From: Chitinophaga pinensis
GTDB taxonomy: Bacteria; Bacteroidota; Bacteroidia; Chitinophagales; UBA10324
Assembly (NCBI GenBank): GCA_945903305.1
Contig: CAMDOA010000030.1
Location: forward strand, 1 to 32,255
Direction: 5' to 3'
DNA: 32,255 nt
Shown piece by piece: positions 13,317-20,469 of this stretch (position 1 is the stretch's first letter; each line of letters begins with the position of its first letter). A model generated the notes under the pieces. The model was given only the letters and a program-made list of their open reading frames with translations, did no database searches and was not told where the DNA came from. The translations under genes were made by a program, and so were the position numbers.

Positions 13317-13374
13317 ACGAGTAATTTCTGAGGTGAATTTATAAAAAAGTTGCACTTATAAATTTTAAAAACAA

Positions 13375-13406
13375 AAAAGGGTAACTTCTTTCGAAGTTAC
13401 CCTTTT
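13375..13406 (-). terminator. Terminator after the four-PKD secreted protein gene
   Basis: A 13-bp perfect stem (13375-13387 and 13394-13406) with a 6-base CTTTCG loop begins 22 bases past the stop codon at 13429. It is followed on the minus strand by a T-rich run. It marks the end of the sigma/PKD locus. Confidence 0.88.
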
Positions 13407-13428
13407 CAATAAACCTAAGAACCAATTT

Positions 13429-15432
13429 TTATTTCACCACAGTGAGTTTCATATTAAAGGTGCTGATGGCATCTGCAACACGAACCATGTAAAGTCCGGC
13501 TGCAAAATTCTGAACAGAAAGTTTTACTAAGTTTTCTCCCTGAATCAATGATACAGTTTCAGTATTAATTACTCTTCCGGTCATATCTGCAATTTGAACA
13601 CTGTAATTTCCCGACTGAGTTAAATGCAAATTTAATGTTGCGCTTCCTCGTGCAGGGTTCGGATAAATTAATGCTGATTCAATATTTGTGATATCAATGT
13701 ATGGAGCATAAGTAGTTACTTCATTTGTATTTACAATTACTGCAACATCACTAATTAATGGAGTAGTTGCATCAATTGTAACAATTGCAGGGTATGTTAC
13801 TTTGTTCAGAATCTCTGCATACACTTTATAAGTACCGTAGGCAATATTGTCGAAACTGTATTCGCCATTTGCATCAGAATAAGTATTGGCAACAGCGGTA
13901 TTACTCATATCCAGTAACATGATTTGAATTCCTGAAAGCGGATCACCTTCTGCTTCCATTTTGTTTGCTCCTTGCGAAACCAAGCCACCGATGAAACCAG
14001 GACCTCCTGGATTTACACCCTGAATTAAATTAATATTCACTCCATACTGACTCGGACCAACATTTACAAACGAAGCCGAACTCCAGAACAATGAGTTATT
14101 GTAATAAGTAGGAATCAAAGCAGCAAAATCAACAGCGCCGGTATCTGCAGCTGCTTTTACAAGGTAAGAACCCGCAGAAAGATTTCCGAAAAAGTAACCG
14201 GAAGAATCAAACACACTCACTTCATAAGTACTGATCAAATTTAATGATTGAGTTAATGAGTCATACTGAATTAAATAAACCTCGGCAAAATCCATCGGGC
14301 TGTTGTTACCGAATATCATTCCGGCTATAAAATAATTACTGTTTGGCACACCCAAAGTAATGGTTACACAATACACATCCTGACAAGATCCTGTACTGTC
14401 GCTGATGGTTAAACAAATTGTCCATGGGCCATTAGATGTATAAGTATGAGTTGCACCAGTTAATCCGGATGCACCTGTTCCATCGCCAAAACTCCATTGT
14501 GCGTTTGTATAATTTCCGATTGATGTATTTACAAATGTTACAGTATTTACAACCGCATTAAAAGTAAATGATGCGCTGCATGAACTTGAACTACCATTGA
14601 CATAAACGCTGTCGCAATAAGTATCGAAACATGAAGCAGATGAATCTGAAATGGTTAAACAAACAAGATAACCTCCGGAAGTTGCATAAGTATGAGTCGG
14701 ATTCATTTGATTAGAAGTAGAGCCATCGCCAAAATCCCAAGAGTAACCTGCAAATGCTCCGACTGTAGATGTGTTACTGAAAGTTATGGTGTTTCCTGAA
14801 TTGTTAGCCGAATTAAAACCTGCTGTGCATCCGCTGCTTCCGCCACTGATATAAATATAATTACAATAAGAACTTGTGCATCCTGCACTGTCTGTTGTAT
14901 AAAGACAAACAAGGTAGTAACCCGGATTTACATAAATGTGTGTTGGATTAGCTCCTGTTCCGCTTGAATTATCTCCAAAATCCCATGCCCATGAATTTGT
15001 GCCGGATGATGAAGCATCAGTAAAGCTAACTAAACTGTCAACTACTGTTGAAGTAAAGTAGGCTGTACAACCGCCTCCACCTGAACTCAGATAAATACTA
15101 TCGCAATAAGTACTAGTGCACCCAATAATAGAATCTGTAACAGTTAGGCATACATAATATAATCCGGTGGTGTTATAAGTTACTATTGGATTTAGCTGAT
15201 TTGAACCGGTTCCGTTTCCGAATGACCACTGACTGGCATAAATACCGGAGGTAGTAGTTGAACTATCCCAGAACTGTACGGTGGTTCCGGTAATTGTGTA
15301 TTGAAATTCGGCGCTGCAAAAGAATTGTGCCGATGATTTCATTGGTGCAAAAGCGAAAAGAGAAATGATGGCAGCAAGCGAAAAGATTTTCGCGAGTGAG
15401 TTTCTCATTGTATTTGTGTGTTTCATTTTCAT
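13429..15432 (-). CDS. Secreted multi-PKD protein with T9SS sorting domain
   Basis: This 667-residue exported protein has a signal peptide ending near KSSAQ (residue 36). Four PKD-type beta domains follow at about 38-118, 120-197, 200-280 and 283-360, recognised by W(S/D)FG(D/N)G and (T/I)YxxxGxYxVCLT. A low-complexity-free domain covers 365-480, then a carboxypeptidase-regulatory-like or Cna-B-like domain at about 485-585 (DPLSGIQIMLLD, ANGEYSFDNIAYGTYKV). The last 80 residues are a type A T9SS C-terminal domain (IYPNPARGSATLNL ... GLYMVRV). Each PKD unit carries a repeating Cys pattern ending in YC. The protein is therefore expected to cross the outer membrane by T9SS and stay on the surface or be released. 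A predicted ECF promoter identical to that of the 17730-18659 gene lies 81-112 bases upstream. Alternative starts at Met3 and Met9 exist. Ligand unknown. Confidence 0.9.
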   Translation of the reverse strand: MKMKHTNTMRNSLAKIFSLAAIISLFAFAPMKSSAQFFCSAEFQYTITGTTVQFWDSSTTTSGIYASQWSFGNGTGSNQLNPIVTYNTTGLYYVCLTVTDSIIGCTSTYCDSIYLSSGGGGCTAYFTSTVVDSLVSFTDASSSGTNSWAWDFGDNSSGTGANPTHIYVNPGYYLVCLYTTDSAGCTSSYCNYIYISGGSSGCTAGFNSANNSGNTITFSNTSTVGAFAGYSWDFGDGSTSNQMNPTHTYATSGGYLVCLTISDSSASCFDTYCDSVYVNGSSSSCSASFTFNAVVNTVTFVNTSIGNYTNAQWSFGDGTGASGLTGATHTYTSNGPWTICLTISDSTGSCQDVYCVTITLGVPNSNYFIAGMIFGNNSPMDFAEVYLIQYDSLTQSLNLISTYEVSVFDSSGYFFGNLSAGSYLVKAAADTGAVDFAALIPTYYNNSLFWSSASFVNVGPSQYGVNINLIQGVNPGGPGFIGGLVSQGANKMEAEGDPLSGIQIMLLDMSNTAVANTYSDANGEYSFDNIAYGTYKVYAEILNKVTYPAIVTIDATTPLISDVAVIVNTNEVTTYAPYIDITNIESALIYPNPARGSATLNLHLTQSGNYSVQIADMTGRVINTETVSLIQGENLVKLSVQNFAAGLYMVRVADAISTFNMKLTVVK

Positions 15433-15512
15433 TTTATTAAAGTTTAAAAGTATGATTTGATTTTTGATTTTATTTTTTCCGGAATTGAAGCTTCACTTTC
15501 GATTTCATTTAT

Positions 15513-15544
15513 ATACACGAATAATTTATTGCGGATGGTTGGGT
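15513..15544 (-). promoter_or_regulatory. Predicted ECF sigma promoter, copy 1 (four-PKD gene)
   Basis: On the minus strand ACCCAACCA (15536-15544) is followed after exactly 15 bases by TCGTGTAT (15513-15520). The same two boxes with the same spacing occur at 18698-18729. The -10-like box contains CGT, common in ECF promoters. It sits 11 bases after the stop of the anti-sigma-like gene and 81 bases before the PKD gene start, so the second PKD gene should have its own transcript. Confidence 0.8.
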
Positions 15545-15554
15545 TGAACTTGAT

Positions 15555-17159
15555 TTATCTATTAATGAAATTATATCGGATACTGATGTTAGCACCTGTT
15601 GTTTTGAAAACTTTTTTAGTTCCGTATTCCGATTTTTCAATTGGGCTCATTGTTCTTCTTTGAAAACATCCTAATTCTAAATCAACCTGTTTTGTAACGG
15701 GAACTGCCACTCCTGCATTTAATGAATATCCTAAAACAAGGGTGTTAATCATTTTCAATGCAAACGGGTTTTCTAAACCTGTAATATTTTTATTCAGATA
15801 ATACGAATTCCATTTTACAGGAGTAGAAGCAAAGCCACCAACACCAAATTGCAGTTTCAGAATTTTTAATGGAATGGAATAATTTATCTGCAGTGGAATA
15901 CCGATATAAGTGTTGACAGCTTTTCCATTTCTCGAACTTATTCCATTATTCAATTGCGTGTGAACTTGTAAAGTATCATAGCCAATTGTTGGATTTCCTT
16001 CAATAGTAAAACACAAACCTTGATTATCGTATTGAATATTTTCTCCAAAACGCATCACATCCATTCCGGTTTCGAATTGAAAATTTTTAATATTCATTCC
16101 TACATGAAAATTATAGTTGAAAGTGTATGTTGACTTTTCATTTTTATATCTGGCTATATAATATAAAGTGTCAATCTGGTATTCAATGGGGTTTATGTAG
16201 GCTCCATGAAAACCAAGTGCAGGAGTGTTTTTCATATAACTGCTTCCAGCTTCAATAAACCATTTTGATTTTTTTTCCTTAGTAATCGGATTTGCAGAAA
16301 TTGATTCTGGTGTTCCTCCGGTATTTATAACCGCAGCAGAATCAGGTAGAGTTTCATTTTCATTAGTAGCAGAAATTTCATTGTTGATTGTATTTGTATT
16401 TTGGTTTTTAGTTATTGAATCATTCGAATGATCTCCGGTAGTTGAAGATGAAGGTGTATTTTCAGAAACAGAATTTCCAGTTTCGTTCTTTGAATTTAAT
16501 TGGGAATTAGAATTCTCTTTCTGCGAATTATCAATTTCGGTTTTTGAATCATTTGTTGAATTTGAATGTGGGATTGAAGCATTTTCATTCTTCTTTATTT
16601 CATTCGAAGATTTTTTTTCAATTGGCTTACCTATAGTTTTATTTGAAGCAGATAGATTTCCGGATGAAGAATTTTTTATAATAGTTGCTTGATTTCCGGG
16701 TGAAGAATTTTTTGTATCGGTTGTTTGATTTCCAATTGAAGAATTATTTTGTTCCGCAGTTGAATTTTTATTTACAGTAATTGAATTTGATTTTGAATCA
16801 GGAGTGTTTGAAGATGAATTTATAGTTGAAGAGTTATTGGCAGGAACAGAATGATTTGATTCAGTAGTTGAATTAAATGGAGGTTCATTTCCGGATTTTT
16901 TATTTTCAGTTGGCGCAACTTTCTCAAATATCGCGAGCTGATTATCAGAATGAATATTGAAGAAAGCGAAGTACGAACCAACTACTCCGAATAACAAAAC
17001 CGCACACAGCAAAAACCACAATCCAAAACGACGATTTGGCTTTTTATCTTCCAGTTTTGCTTCAATTTCACTCCACAACAAATCGTCTGGCGCCAGCTGA
17101 TCTTCATTCAGCTTTCGTCGGAACAATTCGTCGAGTGGATTTTTCTTTTTGTTTTCCAT
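15555..17159 (-). CDS. Probable dual membrane-spanning anti-sigma factor (TM + linker + outer-membrane barrel)
   Basis: The architecture of this 534-residue protein is unusual. Residues 1-44 are a cytoplasmic, charged, anti-sigma-like segment (PLDELFRRKLNED, LLWSEIEAKLEDKK). Residues 45-67 are one membrane helix. Residues 69-298 are a Ser/Asn/Thr/Lys-rich linker containing a 12-residue tandem repeat. Residues 299-534 are rich in alternating aromatic/hydrophobic strands ending in ISIRYNFINR, like a PorT/OmpX-type outer-membrane barrel. It starts in the TGATG overlap with the sigma gene stop, so it is translationally coupled to it. This matches the dual membrane-spanning anti-sigma (Dma) type described in Bacteroides, in which one chain links the outer membrane to a cytoplasmic ECF factor. 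Its function as anti-sigma is inferred from layout and pairing. The alternative is a plain anchored barrel protein. Confidence 0.82.
   Translation of the reverse strand: MENKKKNPLDELFRRKLNEDQLAPDDLLWSEIEAKLEDKKPNRRFGLWFLLCAVLLFGVVGSYFAFFNIHSDNQLAIFEKVAPTENKKSGNEPPFNSTTESNHSVPANNSSTINSSSNTPDSKSNSITVNKNSTAEQNNSSIGNQTTDTKNSSPGNQATIIKNSSSGNLSASNKTIGKPIEKKSSNEIKKNENASIPHSNSTNDSKTEIDNSQKENSNSQLNSKNETGNSVSENTPSSSTTGDHSNDSITKNQNTNTINNEISATNENETLPDSAAVINTGGTPESISANPITKEKKSKWFIEAGSSYMKNTPALGFHGAYINPIEYQIDTLYYIARYKNEKSTYTFNYNFHVGMNIKNFQFETGMDVMRFGENIQYDNQGLCFTIEGNPTIGYDTLQVHTQLNNGISSRNGKAVNTYIGIPLQINYSIPLKILKLQFGVGGFASTPVKWNSYYLNKNITGLENPFALKMINTLVLGYSLNAGVAVPVTKQVDLELGCFQRRTMSPIEKSEYGTKKVFKTTGANISIRYNFINR
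16638..16745 (-). repeat. Three 36-bp tandem repeats encoding a 12-residue linker unit
   Basis: Residues 139-174 of the anti-sigma-like protein are three consecutive 12-residue units: NSSIGNQTTDTK, NSSPGNQATIIK and NSSSGNLSASNK. The DNA repeats share GATTTCC and GAAGAATT words (plus strand). The linker therefore seems to have grown by tandem duplication, and its length may vary between strains. Confidence 0.8.
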
Positions 17160-17725
17160 CAGACTTGTTCTGTTTTAAAAGTTGTACTCAATTGTTTCAT
17201 CAGTTTTTTCCGCGCATCACTCACATGCCACTTACTGGTGTTTTCTGAGATGCCAAGCGCCGCCGCAATTTCTTTGTGTGTGTATTCGTCAATGGCAAAA
17301 AGTGAAAAAACTTTTCGTGTTGCTTCCGGTAATTGTTTGAGCATGCTCAGTGCCTGCTCGGTGTTCATTTGTTTTTCGTATTCATTTATATCTGCTACAT
17401 TTTTAAATTCCAATTCATCACTGTCAACGAACTGATGATGATGATTGAAGTTTAAATGTTTGCGGTGTTCGTCAATTATGGTGTTAATCATCACTCTTGA
17501 AATCCATGATTCGAACGGCATTTGTGATTGATACTTTTCTAAGTTGTTCAGTATTTTCAGAAACCCTATCGTGAATAATTCCCGCGCCTCCTCGCTATTG
17601 CGCGCATAGCGACGACAGATGTTCATCAGGCGGGCATAGGAATTTTTGTAAAGCATGTTTTGTGCTCTTCGGTCCTGGTTAATGCAGGATTTAATCAGTT
17701 CGTTATTGATTAAATGTTCCGTCAT
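17159..17725 (-). CDS. ECF-type RNA polymerase sigma factor
   Basis: This 188-residue group 4 sigma factor has region 2 at about residues 20-90 (ARLMNICRRYARNSEEARELF, then PFESWISRVMINTIIDEHRK) and region 4 at about 122-178, with the helix-turn-helix HKEIAAALGISENTSKWHV followed by DARKKL. Region 1.1 and region 3 are absent, as usual for ECF factors. It starts 4 bases after the stop of the upstream T9SS/PKD gene, and its TGA overlaps the ATG of the anti-sigma-like gene, so all three are read from one message. It probably recognises the ACCCAACCA-N15-TCGTGTAT element found before that operon and before the four-PKD gene, which would give positive autoregulation once the anti-sigma releases it. 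Confidence 0.95.
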   Translation of the reverse strand: MTEHLINNELIKSCINQDRRAQNMLYKNSYARLMNICRRYARNSEEARELFTIGFLKILNNLEKYQSQMPFESWISRVMINTIIDEHRKHLNFNHHHQFVDSDELEFKNVADINEYEKQMNTEQALSMLKQLPEATRKVFSLFAIDEYTHKEIAAALGISENTSKWHVSDARKKLMKQLSTTFKTEQV

Positions 17726-17729
17726 TCAC

Positions 17730-18659
17730 TTATTTAGCAAACACAGTCGTCAATCTTTTTCCTCCGGATTTTACAGTGATAAAATAATTTCCGGCGGCGA
17801 GCTCATTCAAATTAAAATGGTAAGTGTTGTTTCCCTTCATTGATTTTTCCGAAAATGATTTTACTTCCTGACCAATCAGGTTAAAGATTTTCAGTTCGAA
17901 AATATTTTCTTCATCAGCATAAAAATTCACCCTTGCATTATCACCTGAAGGATTTGGGGAAACAGTAATAGAATTAGAAAGAATTTCATCTAGAATTTTT
18001 GTTCCGGGGGCAATCACTTTTATAATCAGTCCTGAACCTTCTGTTCGAGTCACCACATTTCCATTGTTATCAAAACCAATCTGATGACAAAAACTGCAAA
18101 CAGTATCCTGAATGGTTGATGAAATTACATTGAGGCATACATCAAATAAATTGTGCGAACTGAAAACATGATAGGGAAAAGTCTGAGTGGAAGAATTTCC
18201 ATCGCCGAAATTCCAGAGCAAAGTTTTATTACCTAATCCTGAAGTATCCAATTCCAAATAAAAAGTATCGTTGCAGGTACAGTAGTTTGATTTGAACGAA
18301 ACCGTGCAAGTATCGGGTGGTATTACAATTGACGGGCAGAAATCGGAATTCCAAACTGACTGAGTTGATCCGAACGGAGGAAAAATGGTATCGGTTATAA
18401 CTCCAATGCAATTGAGATAACTACAGCTTATTGTATCAAAAGAATTAAGTGAAATTGTAATTGCGAAAGCTCCGCTTGAATCGGTATAAACACTATCTAC
18501 CATTGGAAATCCGCTTGAATCTGCGTGCTCAATTGCAATAGCAACGATGGTAAAATTTGTGTTTACAAGTTGCCCTGAAACAGTAAAAAAAAGTTGTGCC
18601 TGAGATTTGAATGCGAACAAGGTGCAAACAACGAACAGAACTAAAAATTTAATTTTCAT
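17730..18659 (-). CDS. Secreted single-PKD protein with T9SS sorting domain
   Basis: This 309-residue exported protein has a signal peptide cleaved near FKSQAQ (residues 17-22). An N-terminal beta domain (about 25-90) has a carboxypeptidase-regulatory-like pattern (DSVYTDSSGAFAITI). One PKD domain (about 115-195) has LLWNFGDGNSSTQTFPYHVF and the same VCLN...C..C cysteine pattern as the four-PKD protein. The last 82 residues are a T9SS type A domain (VSPNPSGDNARVNF ... AAGNYFITVKSGGKR). The open frame reaches 27 codons further upstream, but the ATG at 18659 directly precedes a clean signal peptide. It is first in the operon with the ECF factor (4-base gap) and carries the predicted ECF promoter 39-70 bases upstream. 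It could be the signal, a cargo reporter of T9SS state, or simply a regulon member. Confidence 0.88.
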   Translation of the reverse strand: MKIKFLVLFVVCTLFAFKSQAQLFFTVSGQLVNTNFTIVAIAIEHADSSGFPMVDSVYTDSSGAFAITISLNSFDTISCSYLNCIGVITDTIFPPFGSTQSVWNSDFCPSIVIPPDTCTVSFKSNYCTCNDTFYLELDTSGLGNKTLLWNFGDGNSSTQTFPYHVFSSHNLFDVCLNVISSTIQDTVCSFCHQIGFDNNGNVVTRTEGSGLIIKVIAPGTKILDEILSNSITVSPNPSGDNARVNFYADEENIFELKIFNLIGQEVKSFSEKSMKGNNTYHFNLNELAAGNYFITVKSGGKRLTTVFAK

Positions 18660-18697
18660 TTCACTCAGTTTTAAATTAGAATTATCACTCCATCTGC

Positions 18698-18729
18698 ATA
18701 CACGAGAATTGATACATGATTGGTTGGGT
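18698..18729 (-). promoter_or_regulatory. Predicted ECF sigma promoter, copy 2 (PKD-sigma-anti-sigma operon)
   Basis: On the minus strand ACCCAACCA (18721-18729), 15 bases, then TCGTGTAT (18698-18705). All 17 box positions and the spacer length are identical to the copy at 15513-15544, while the spacers themselves differ. Transcription should start near 18690, leaving a leader of about 30 bases before the ATG at 18659. Confidence 0.82.
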
Positions 18730-18776
18730 AGCAGGTGCAATAATTTCGCTAAAGTAAAAGCTATGAAACAGCCTTA

Positions 18777-19301
18777 CTATTCTGTCGGCTGGTTTTCTGA
18801 CACTTTCAGATTTTCATCTTTCTTGCCGCGATAAAAAAGCAGTAGTGAAACAACGACAAACGAAACAAATAAATCGGCAAAATTGAAAATGCCGGTGCGC
18901 AGGTTATGAATACCAAGAATCATAAAATCAGTTACATGTCGGTCGTATAAAATGCGGTCAATGATATTTCCCATTCCGCCGGCGAGAATTAATGCGAATC
19001 CAAGCAGTTTTATCCAGTTCATTTCTTTTGATTTTACAATCACATACATCAACAACGAAATCAAAAAGGCTATGGGAACAATTATAAAAATCCAAAGGCT
19101 CACAGAATCAGAAAGTTCATTTCCTAAACTAAAAAATGCTCCTGTGTTCTCAGCATATTTTAAAACAAAGAAATTTTTGAAATAAGAAATTATCTGACCA
19201 TCCATCAGGTGTTCCTTCGCAAAATTCTTGATTATCCTGTCAAACCCGATTAATGCACAAGCGGCAATGCAGAACAGAAATATTTTTAACCAGGGTTTCA
19301 T
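18777..19301 (-). CDS. lspA: Lipoprotein signal peptidase II
   Basis: LspA is an inner-membrane aspartyl protease that removes the signal peptide from diacylglyceryl-modified prolipoproteins. The 174-residue protein has four membrane helices. It also has the family motifs VLKYAENTGAFFSLG (about 47-60), GGMGNIIDRI with catalytic Asp115, and FNFADLFV with catalytic Asp143. The length is normal. The gene ends 118 bases upstream of the PKD-sigma operon start on the same strand. A TCTTTG-containing box (CATCTTTG on the minus strand, one base off TAnnTTTG) lies upstream but is weak. It is the target enzyme of globomycin in other bacteria. Confidence 0.95.
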   Translation of the reverse strand: MKPWLKIFLFCIAACALIGFDRIIKNFAKEHLMDGQIISYFKNFFVLKYAENTGAFFSLGNELSDSVSLWIFIIVPIAFLISLLMYVIVKSKEMNWIKLLGFALILAGGMGNIIDRILYDRHVTDFMILGIHNLRTGIFNFADLFVSFVVVSLLLFYRGKKDENLKVSENQPTE

Positions 19302-19380: not shown

Positions 19381-20469
19381 TTATTTATTTTCTTTCAGTA
19401 TCGCCATCAATTGATGATTGAGGTATAATTTTTCTTTGCCCACCATTATACTTTTCAGAAATCCCTTTTCTTCCAAACTGTTTAAATAACTTCCGGAAGT
19501 TTTTTTGTTTCCCAAACCCGCGCTTTCGATAAAATTCCTTTTGGTGTACGGTAATCTGAAAAGTGTTTCCACTAAATCCTTAGAGTAAATTTTCGGAAGT
19601 AGTTTTTGAATTTTTTCTCCCATTGACTTCATCAGTTTTTCAATTTTCAAAATTCTATTCCTTCCATTTTTTGCGGTCTCTTCAATCATATCAAGTATAA
19701 AAAGTATCCAGCTTTCCCAATCACCTTTCTCGGTCACATTTCGCAGGTTGAGGTAGTATTCGTTTTTATTTTTAAGAATGTAACTGCTTAAATACAGTGC
19801 AGGCAAATCCATCAGTCCGCAAAGTTTTAAATACAACAACAGAATAATTCTGCCGGTTCTTCCATTTCCATCAAAAAACGGATGAATGGCTTCGAACTGG
19901 TAATGAATCAAAGCAAGTTTAACGAGATGGTCAATGTCATCGTCTGTATTTATTAACTGCTCTAAAGCTTTCAGTTTATCTCTTATAATATTTTCGCCTT
20001 CAGGTGGCGTATAAATTATTTTTTTTGTAACAGGATTAAGCAATTGCGTTCCGGGTAAATTCCGGATGCCTGATTGATTTTCTTTTATGATGCGCATAAT
20101 GGCAATAAACAAATTGGTAGTCAATATCGGTTTCCTTTTTATCTGATTCACACCATACCACAAAGCATCCTTATAGTGAATCACTTCTTTAGTTGCATCG
20201 GTTTCAATTTTTACATCAGCAATGGTTGCTTGAAAAAGCGCTTCTTGAGTAGTGATGATATTTTCAATTTCAGAACTGGCTTGTGCTTCCTGTAAGTTTA
20301 TAGTATCAATAAATAAAAGCGGATTGGGTAAATTCGTAATCGCACCTTTTAATTCAGAGAGCGCCCTGCTTGCAGAAATTATTTTCTTCAAAATAATTTT
20401 AGTTTCAATATCCTTTTTCGGGGGTAAATCAGGTAGGTTGTTGTATGGTTTAAGCGGGTTGAATTTCAT
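19381..20469 (-). CDS. Fic family protein, class II (N-terminal inhibitory motif)
   Basis: Fic enzymes transfer AMP (or another nucleotide part) to hydroxyl side chains of target proteins. This 362-residue protein has an N-terminal helical Fic_N/DUF4172-like region and an inhibitory helix motif (S/T)xxxE(G/N), seen as SSEIEN at residues 65-70, so Glu69 should block ATP gamma-phosphate placement. The active-site motif is HPFFDGNGRTGR at 196-207. A winged-helix-like tail (about 300-362) contains RNFIESAGLGNKKTSGSYLNSL and GFLKSIMVGKEKLYL. All catalytic residues are intact. Because the inhibitory helix is within the same chain, no separate antitoxin is needed. The DNA-binding-like tail and the repeat-filled promoter suggest autoregulation, which is inference. 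Its target is unknown. Confidence 0.92.
   Translation of the reverse strand: MKFNPLKPYNNLPDLPPKKDIETKIILKKIISASRALSELKGAITNLPNPLLFIDTINLQEAQASSEIENIITTQEALFQATIADVKIETDATKEVIHYKDALWYGVNQIKRKPILTTNLFIAIMRIIKENQSGIRNLPGTQLLNPVTKKIIYTPPEGENIIRDKLKALEQLINTDDDIDHLVKLALIHYQFEAIHPFFDGNGRTGRIILLLYLKLCGLMDLPALYLSSYILKNKNEYYLNLRNVTEKGDWESWILFILDMIEETAKNGRNRILKIEKLMKSMGEKIQKLLPKIYSKDLVETLFRLPYTKRNFIESAGLGNKKTSGSYLNSLEEKGFLKSIMVGKEKLYLNHQLMAILKENK

Follow-up and report, generated by a model that had tools for sequence, protein, structure and literature searches.

The locus lies on the minus strand of a 32,255-nucleotide stretch of DNA, the window, and consists, in minus-strand order, of a paired sequence element (site 1), a 309-aa gene, an ECF sigma factor gene, a gene for an anti-sigma candidate, a second paired element (site 2), a 667-aa gene and a hairpin. 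The 309-aa gene (17730..18659) has its ATG at 18659, directly after which a signal peptide is encoded, and specifies a protein exported by the type IX secretion system (T9SS), with a Por_Secre_tail domain (E 1e-10) and a partial PKD domain (PKD_4, E 2.3e-4, just under the cut-off). The sigma factor (188 aa, 17159..17725) contains only Sigma70 regions 2 and 4 (Sigma70_r2 and Sigma70_r4_2, both above the curated Pfam cut-offs), the domain content of an ECF sigma factor. It scores 90.3 bits against TIGR02937 (sigma70-ECF; cut-off 42.9) and 83.1 against the Bacteroidetes subfamily TIGR02985, below the cut-off of 126.4. The anti-sigma candidate (534 aa, 15555..17159) follows. Because only 4 nt separate the 309-aa gene from the sigma gene, which in turn shares one base with the anti-sigma gene, these three genes look like one operon. 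The 667-aa T9SS-exported protein (13429..15432), a putative regulon target, has four PKD stretches (PKD_4, E 2e-48) and a Por_Secre_tail (E 1.2e-12). A pattern scan finds a terminator-like hairpin of 15 pairs with a T-rich tail at 13374..13407, which would close the four-PKD transcription unit. The stop codon of the anti-sigma gene is only 10 nt before site 2, so that read-through from the sigma operon into the four-PKD gene is also possible. A SoFic-like Fic-family gene (19381-20469, minus strand) is located upstream of lspA (18777-19301), near the sigma operon; no link between it and the sigma regulon is evident.

Sites 1 and 2 are exact minus-strand copies of ACCCAACCA-N15-TCGTGTAT, at 18698-18729 and 15513-15544, respectively. 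The original prediction described this pair as unique in the window, and a pattern scan of the window reproduces both copies and finds no further one; none is expected from 100 dinucleotide shuffles. A chance match, which had been judged very unlikely, is thus disfavoured by the shuffles and also by the conservation of the boxes in relatives. Alignment of the two copies shows 17 of 17 box bases and the 15-base gap to be identical, and the spacers, as had been noted, and the outer flanks to be unlike. Both sites are intergenic, in gaps of about 120 bases (18660-18776 and 15433-15554) whose coordinates agree with the predicted placement before the sigma operon and the four-PKD gene, and each has the same orientation as the gene directly 3' of it. 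In the predicted promoter of the sigma operon, the -35 box ACCCAACCA occupies 18721-18729 and the -10 box TCGTGTAT 18698-18705; in that of the four-PKD gene, the -35 box occupies 15536-15544 and the -10 box 15513-15520.

The source genome (G000; 99% complete, 138 contigs) has only these 2 exact copies of the 32-base pattern, both in the window, among the 3,117,621 bases scanned. A third copy with one mismatch (C5:11231) precedes the gene of another T9SS-exported protein. The whole-genome scan finds no copy with two mismatches and none of a reversed control pattern; when three mismatches are allowed, 12 matches are obtained versus 4 for the reversed control, which is near background. The leader of the four-PKD gene also contains a 12-base palindrome, TTGAAGCTTCAA, present here as TTGAAGCTTCAC with one mismatch (15485-15496), about 20 nt downstream of the -10 box. 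It recurs in G002, G003, G004 and G005, is missing from G010, and could be an operator or a leader hairpin.

The predicted structure of the anti-sigma candidate consists of helices 8-18, 26-37 and 41-72, a disordered stretch to residue 294 and eight strands between 300 and 530. Helix 41-72 covers a hydrophobic segment, and the tether comprises about 220 disordered, Ser/Asn-rich residues. In a fold search, which informs the barrel alone, the strands match the solved 8-strand outer-membrane barrels NspA and OmpA with Z of 16-19. Confidence is high only for the strands, with pLDDT near 45-50 in the N-terminal part, and a Pfam search detects no known anti-sigma domain in the protein. The predicted order of an N-terminal region, a membrane helix, a disordered tether and a barrel is the layout of the dual membrane-spanning anti-sigma (Dma) proteins. 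The candidate is predicted to span both membranes and probably controls the sigma factor. A second ECF sigma gene with a barrel-ending anti-sigma gene of the same layout is found elsewhere in the source genome (L101, C37:1082-2963). Dma-type pairs are therefore probably multiple in this genome; the box is absent before this second pair.

Five relatives carry the locus together with the source genome; the named relatives are metagenome-assembled Chitinophagaceae/Bacteroidota. All 16 readable orthologous upstream regions in these six genomes contain the box: 5 before the sigma operon (G000, G002, G004, G005 and G010), 6 before the multi-PKD gene (the same five and G003) and 5 before the SprB-repeat T9SS gene found at the unlinked third site. 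The conservation that was to be looked for in the same gaps of related genomes is thus present. In G003 the contig breaks off inside the anti-sigma gene, so that the sigma gene is not seen. Sigma orthologues have changed very little (98% identity in G002 and G004, 87% in G005 and 80% in G010, which belongs to another genus), and the anti-sigma candidates are 42-72% identical, with the tether as the most variable part. The third target is a protein of 1046 aa with SprB repeats, DUF7619 and a T9SS sorting domain, whose gene is unlinked to the sigma locus. Its orthologues in G002, G003, G005 and G010 share 59-79% identity; G004 has none. In 5 of 5 copies the box lies about 18-41 nt before the ATG. 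The -10 box appears as the variant CCGTTTA before the multi-PKD gene of G002 and the SprB-repeat gene of G005, both of which were found by position. Genes for the two closest P0003-like PKD/T9SS proteins (in G002 and G010) have accessory sites upstream, as does the gene for a putative lipoprotein (G002, C427) that lacks a Por_Secre_tail. A C-terminal Por_Secre_tail above the curated cut-off is shared by both window targets and the 1046-aa protein. The outputs had been predicted to be T9SS-exported PKD proteins. Export by the T9SS holds, but in the third conserved output SprB repeats and DUF7619 take the place of PKD domains, so that the regulon is better described as one of T9SS-exported proteins than of PKD proteins alone.

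When CCCAACY-N15..17-YCGTKTA is scanned in 60 genomes of the order, the six locus-bearing genomes give 18 matches and the other 54 genomes together 14. Seventeen of the 18 have an N16 spacer and lie just upstream of an exported-protein gene in the same orientation; the remaining one (G005, N15) is within an open frame. Most of those examined among the 14 are intragenic. G001, which is of the same genus and has other ECF sigma factors without this one, has no N16 regulon site. The proposed genome-wide check on the motif therefore comes out in its favour, since matches are few and fall upstream of exported T9SS genes. Lone intragenic matches, such as those on C2 and C3 of the source genome, are rejected as background. 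A near-match, CCCAACT-N16-TCGTATA, is shared by an intergenic region of G004 (L094, C32:33033) and G005 (L095, C24:39821); it adjoins a T9SS-like gene of 1160-1239 aa and is oriented away from that gene.

A profile of 19 sites refines the consensus to CCCAACY-N16-YCGTKTA, with AAC in the -35 box and CGT in the -10 box invariant, the spacing fixed, and the flanks and spacer weakly conserved; the profile is partly biased because most of its sites were picked up with the pattern itself. The boxes correspond to AAC-N18-CGT, a spacing in the usual range for ECF promoters, and by these boxes and this spacing the element is classed as a predicted ECF-type promoter. Because AAC and CGT are general hallmarks of ECF promoters, the element belongs to a known kind of promoter and is new in its specificity. 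The statement that the motif was not recognised from any described ECF group is corrected to this extent.

In G008, G031 and G054, more distant sigma homologues, at 38-44% identity, are accompanied by these boxes as well, the spacer being one base shorter (AAC-N17-CGT), a result in favour of the prediction. In G008, of another genus, the box precedes an operon of a five-PKD T9SS protein, sigma factor and anti-sigma; in G031, of another family, it precedes an operon of a 945-aa T9SS protein, sigma factor and anti-sigma. G054, of a third family, has exactly two matches to ACCCAACC-N15..17-CGTGWW, one before the sigma gene and the other before an unlinked five-PKD T9SS protein; the seven matches in the remaining genomes are all within open reading frames. 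The combination of a T9SS-cargo gene with ECF sigma and anti-sigma genes recurs as an apparent operon in G031 (L207) and G008 (L049), with different cargo proteins. A looser pattern, AACC-N15-18-CGT, sought before all sigma homologues, gives sites near several start codons; some of these are chance matches, and the conclusions therefore rest on the extended boxes only.

When 29 sigma factors are placed on a tree, all eight that have the motif lie to one side of a moderately supported branch (82/74), and the G031 sigma factor has a long branch. None of 500 label shuffles gives as good a grouping; this test is inflated by near-identical orthologues, and the four distant lineages still stay together. 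L146, a lichen homologue, and G007 show only part of the motif and were not counted as carriers in this test. The joint inheritance of the sigma clade and the promoter is the strongest evidence that this sigma factor reads these boxes.

Judged from sequence, both elements are very probably promoters to which RNA polymerase is directed by the ECF sigma factor whose gene lies between them, and the locus would belong to a small autoregulated T9SS-cargo regulon; the original prediction is thus largely supported. The sequences themselves establish the sites with their orientation and conservation, the small size of the regulon, the co-inheritance with the sigma clade and the order of domains, whereas sigma binding, start sites, anti-sigma activity, topology and the kind of signal are inferred. 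In the resting state, the sigma factor would be kept at the inner membrane by the N-terminus of the anti-sigma, whose C-terminal barrel would be inserted in the outer membrane. Detection of a signal there or at the cell surface would release the sigma factor, which would bind the predicted promoters, initiate transcription downstream of their -10 boxes and produce more of its own operon and exported cargo. Site 1 would make the sigma operon (T9SS-exported PKD protein, sigma factor and anti-sigma) self-activating, site 2 would drive the four-PKD T9SS protein, and the third, unlinked site of the source genome would drive the 1046-aa SprB-repeat T9SS protein. Because the activated operon includes the inhibitor, the proposed switch would also reset itself.

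As in the present locus, the operons of G008 and G031 start with a T9SS-cargo gene, although the encoded protein is a different one; this fits, without showing it, a reading in which the cargo or its successful secretion is the signal. The leading exported protein may then be the ligand of the anti-sigma's own barrel, closing a cargo-sensing feedback loop, although we regard this as rather unlikely. If true, the outer membrane would be where the cell gauges its type IX secretion or its surface coat, and one protein would relay the signal across both membranes to the sigma factor.

Other explanations of the boxes have to be set against promoter recognition by this sigma factor. Conserved bipartite sites upstream of a regulon are also what the sites of an activator look like, and a separate conserved palindrome is present in the leader of the four-PKD gene. 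The boxes might accordingly be the operator of another transcription factor, such as a response regulator, with the sigma factor reading other sequences. However, the two boxes differ from each other and form neither repeats nor a palindrome, all regulon sites have one orientation and equal spacing at 18-80 nt before the start codon, and the boxes bear ECF hallmarks in a motif that tracks the sigma clade across families. These features make an operator improbable.

Promoters read by different or several ECF sigma factors, of which the neighbouring one would be only one or incidental, would be consistent with the 11 matches to this sigma factor encoded in the source genome and with the overlap of ECF regulons suggested for Flavobacterium psychrophilum (PMC9723704). 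Such promiscuity is nevertheless very improbable, given that G001 has other ECF sigma factors but neither this sigma factor nor N16 regulon sites, and that eight genomes have the box in front of the operon encoding a member of this sigma clade. The proximity of the two copies, 3 kb apart in one locus, might by itself suggest that the repeat arose by chance or that one intergenic region was recently duplicated. However, the spacers and outer flanks of the copies are unlike, the boxes stay fixed while their surroundings diverge between genera, and an unlinked third gene has the box in five genomes. Conservation with diverged flanks rules this origin out for practical purposes. The likely interpretation is that a Dma-type switch controls a small, autoregulated set of T9SS-cargo genes.

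There are precedents for each component: AAC/CGT boxes in ECF promoters, autoregulation of sigma operons, and Dma-type anti-sigma factors. A partial search of the literature did not find a Dma-type switch combined with T9SS cargo as both operon member and output and with this extended motif; the combination, with a well-conserved small regulon of a known kind, seems to be new. Similarly, no promoter sequence for the sigma factors of the recently described Dma-type anti-sigma factors was found in the searchable part of the literature. The locus thus offers a compact conserved regulon with a defined predicted promoter, visible in several families, and links T9SS cargo with a Dma-type trans-envelope switch in a part of the Bacteroidota known here from metagenomes. 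The motif can be used to find target genes of related sigma factors, and the idea of an exported protein as the signal becomes directly testable.

The closest likeness in architecture is to the Das/Dma systems of Bacteroides thetaiotaomicron, in which an ECF21 sigma factor is paired with a dual membrane-spanning anti-sigma (PMC13088901). Dma proteins consist of an N-terminal anti-sigma domain, a membrane helix, a disordered tether and a barrel, and their genes adjoin an ECF sigma gene (PMC13088901); here, too, the sigma gene adjoins that of a single tethered-barrel anti-sigma, which is likened to Dma by this architecture. Deletion of Dma2 in B. thetaiotaomicron induces mostly its own operon (PMC13088901), which is what autoregulation predicts for the present locus. 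The Dma paper describes no promoter motif, and outer membrane vesicles and polysaccharide loci are the subject of the Dma studies (PMC13088901), whereas the present operon starts with a gene for a T9SS-exported protein and the predicted outputs are likewise exported by the T9SS. In F. psychrophilum SM6, an ECF-type promoter with a CGT -10 box precedes T9SS-related genes and an ECF sigma/anti-sigma pair (PMC9723704). The likeness to SM6 concerns that box and the promoter type, and the SM6 genes named encode T9SS machinery (GldN and PorU) and others, unlike the exported cargo found here. An ECF sigma factor is also linked to type IX secretion in the PorXY-SigP system of Porphyromonas gingivalis, where SigP is reported to act together with a two-component system and to control components of the secretion machinery (PMC4800418, PMC7712824), and the T9SS CTD protein PorA is reported to affect SigP signalling (PMC7712824). 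In contrast, the sigma gene of the present locus adjoins a Dma-type anti-sigma gene, and its predicted targets are cargo genes.
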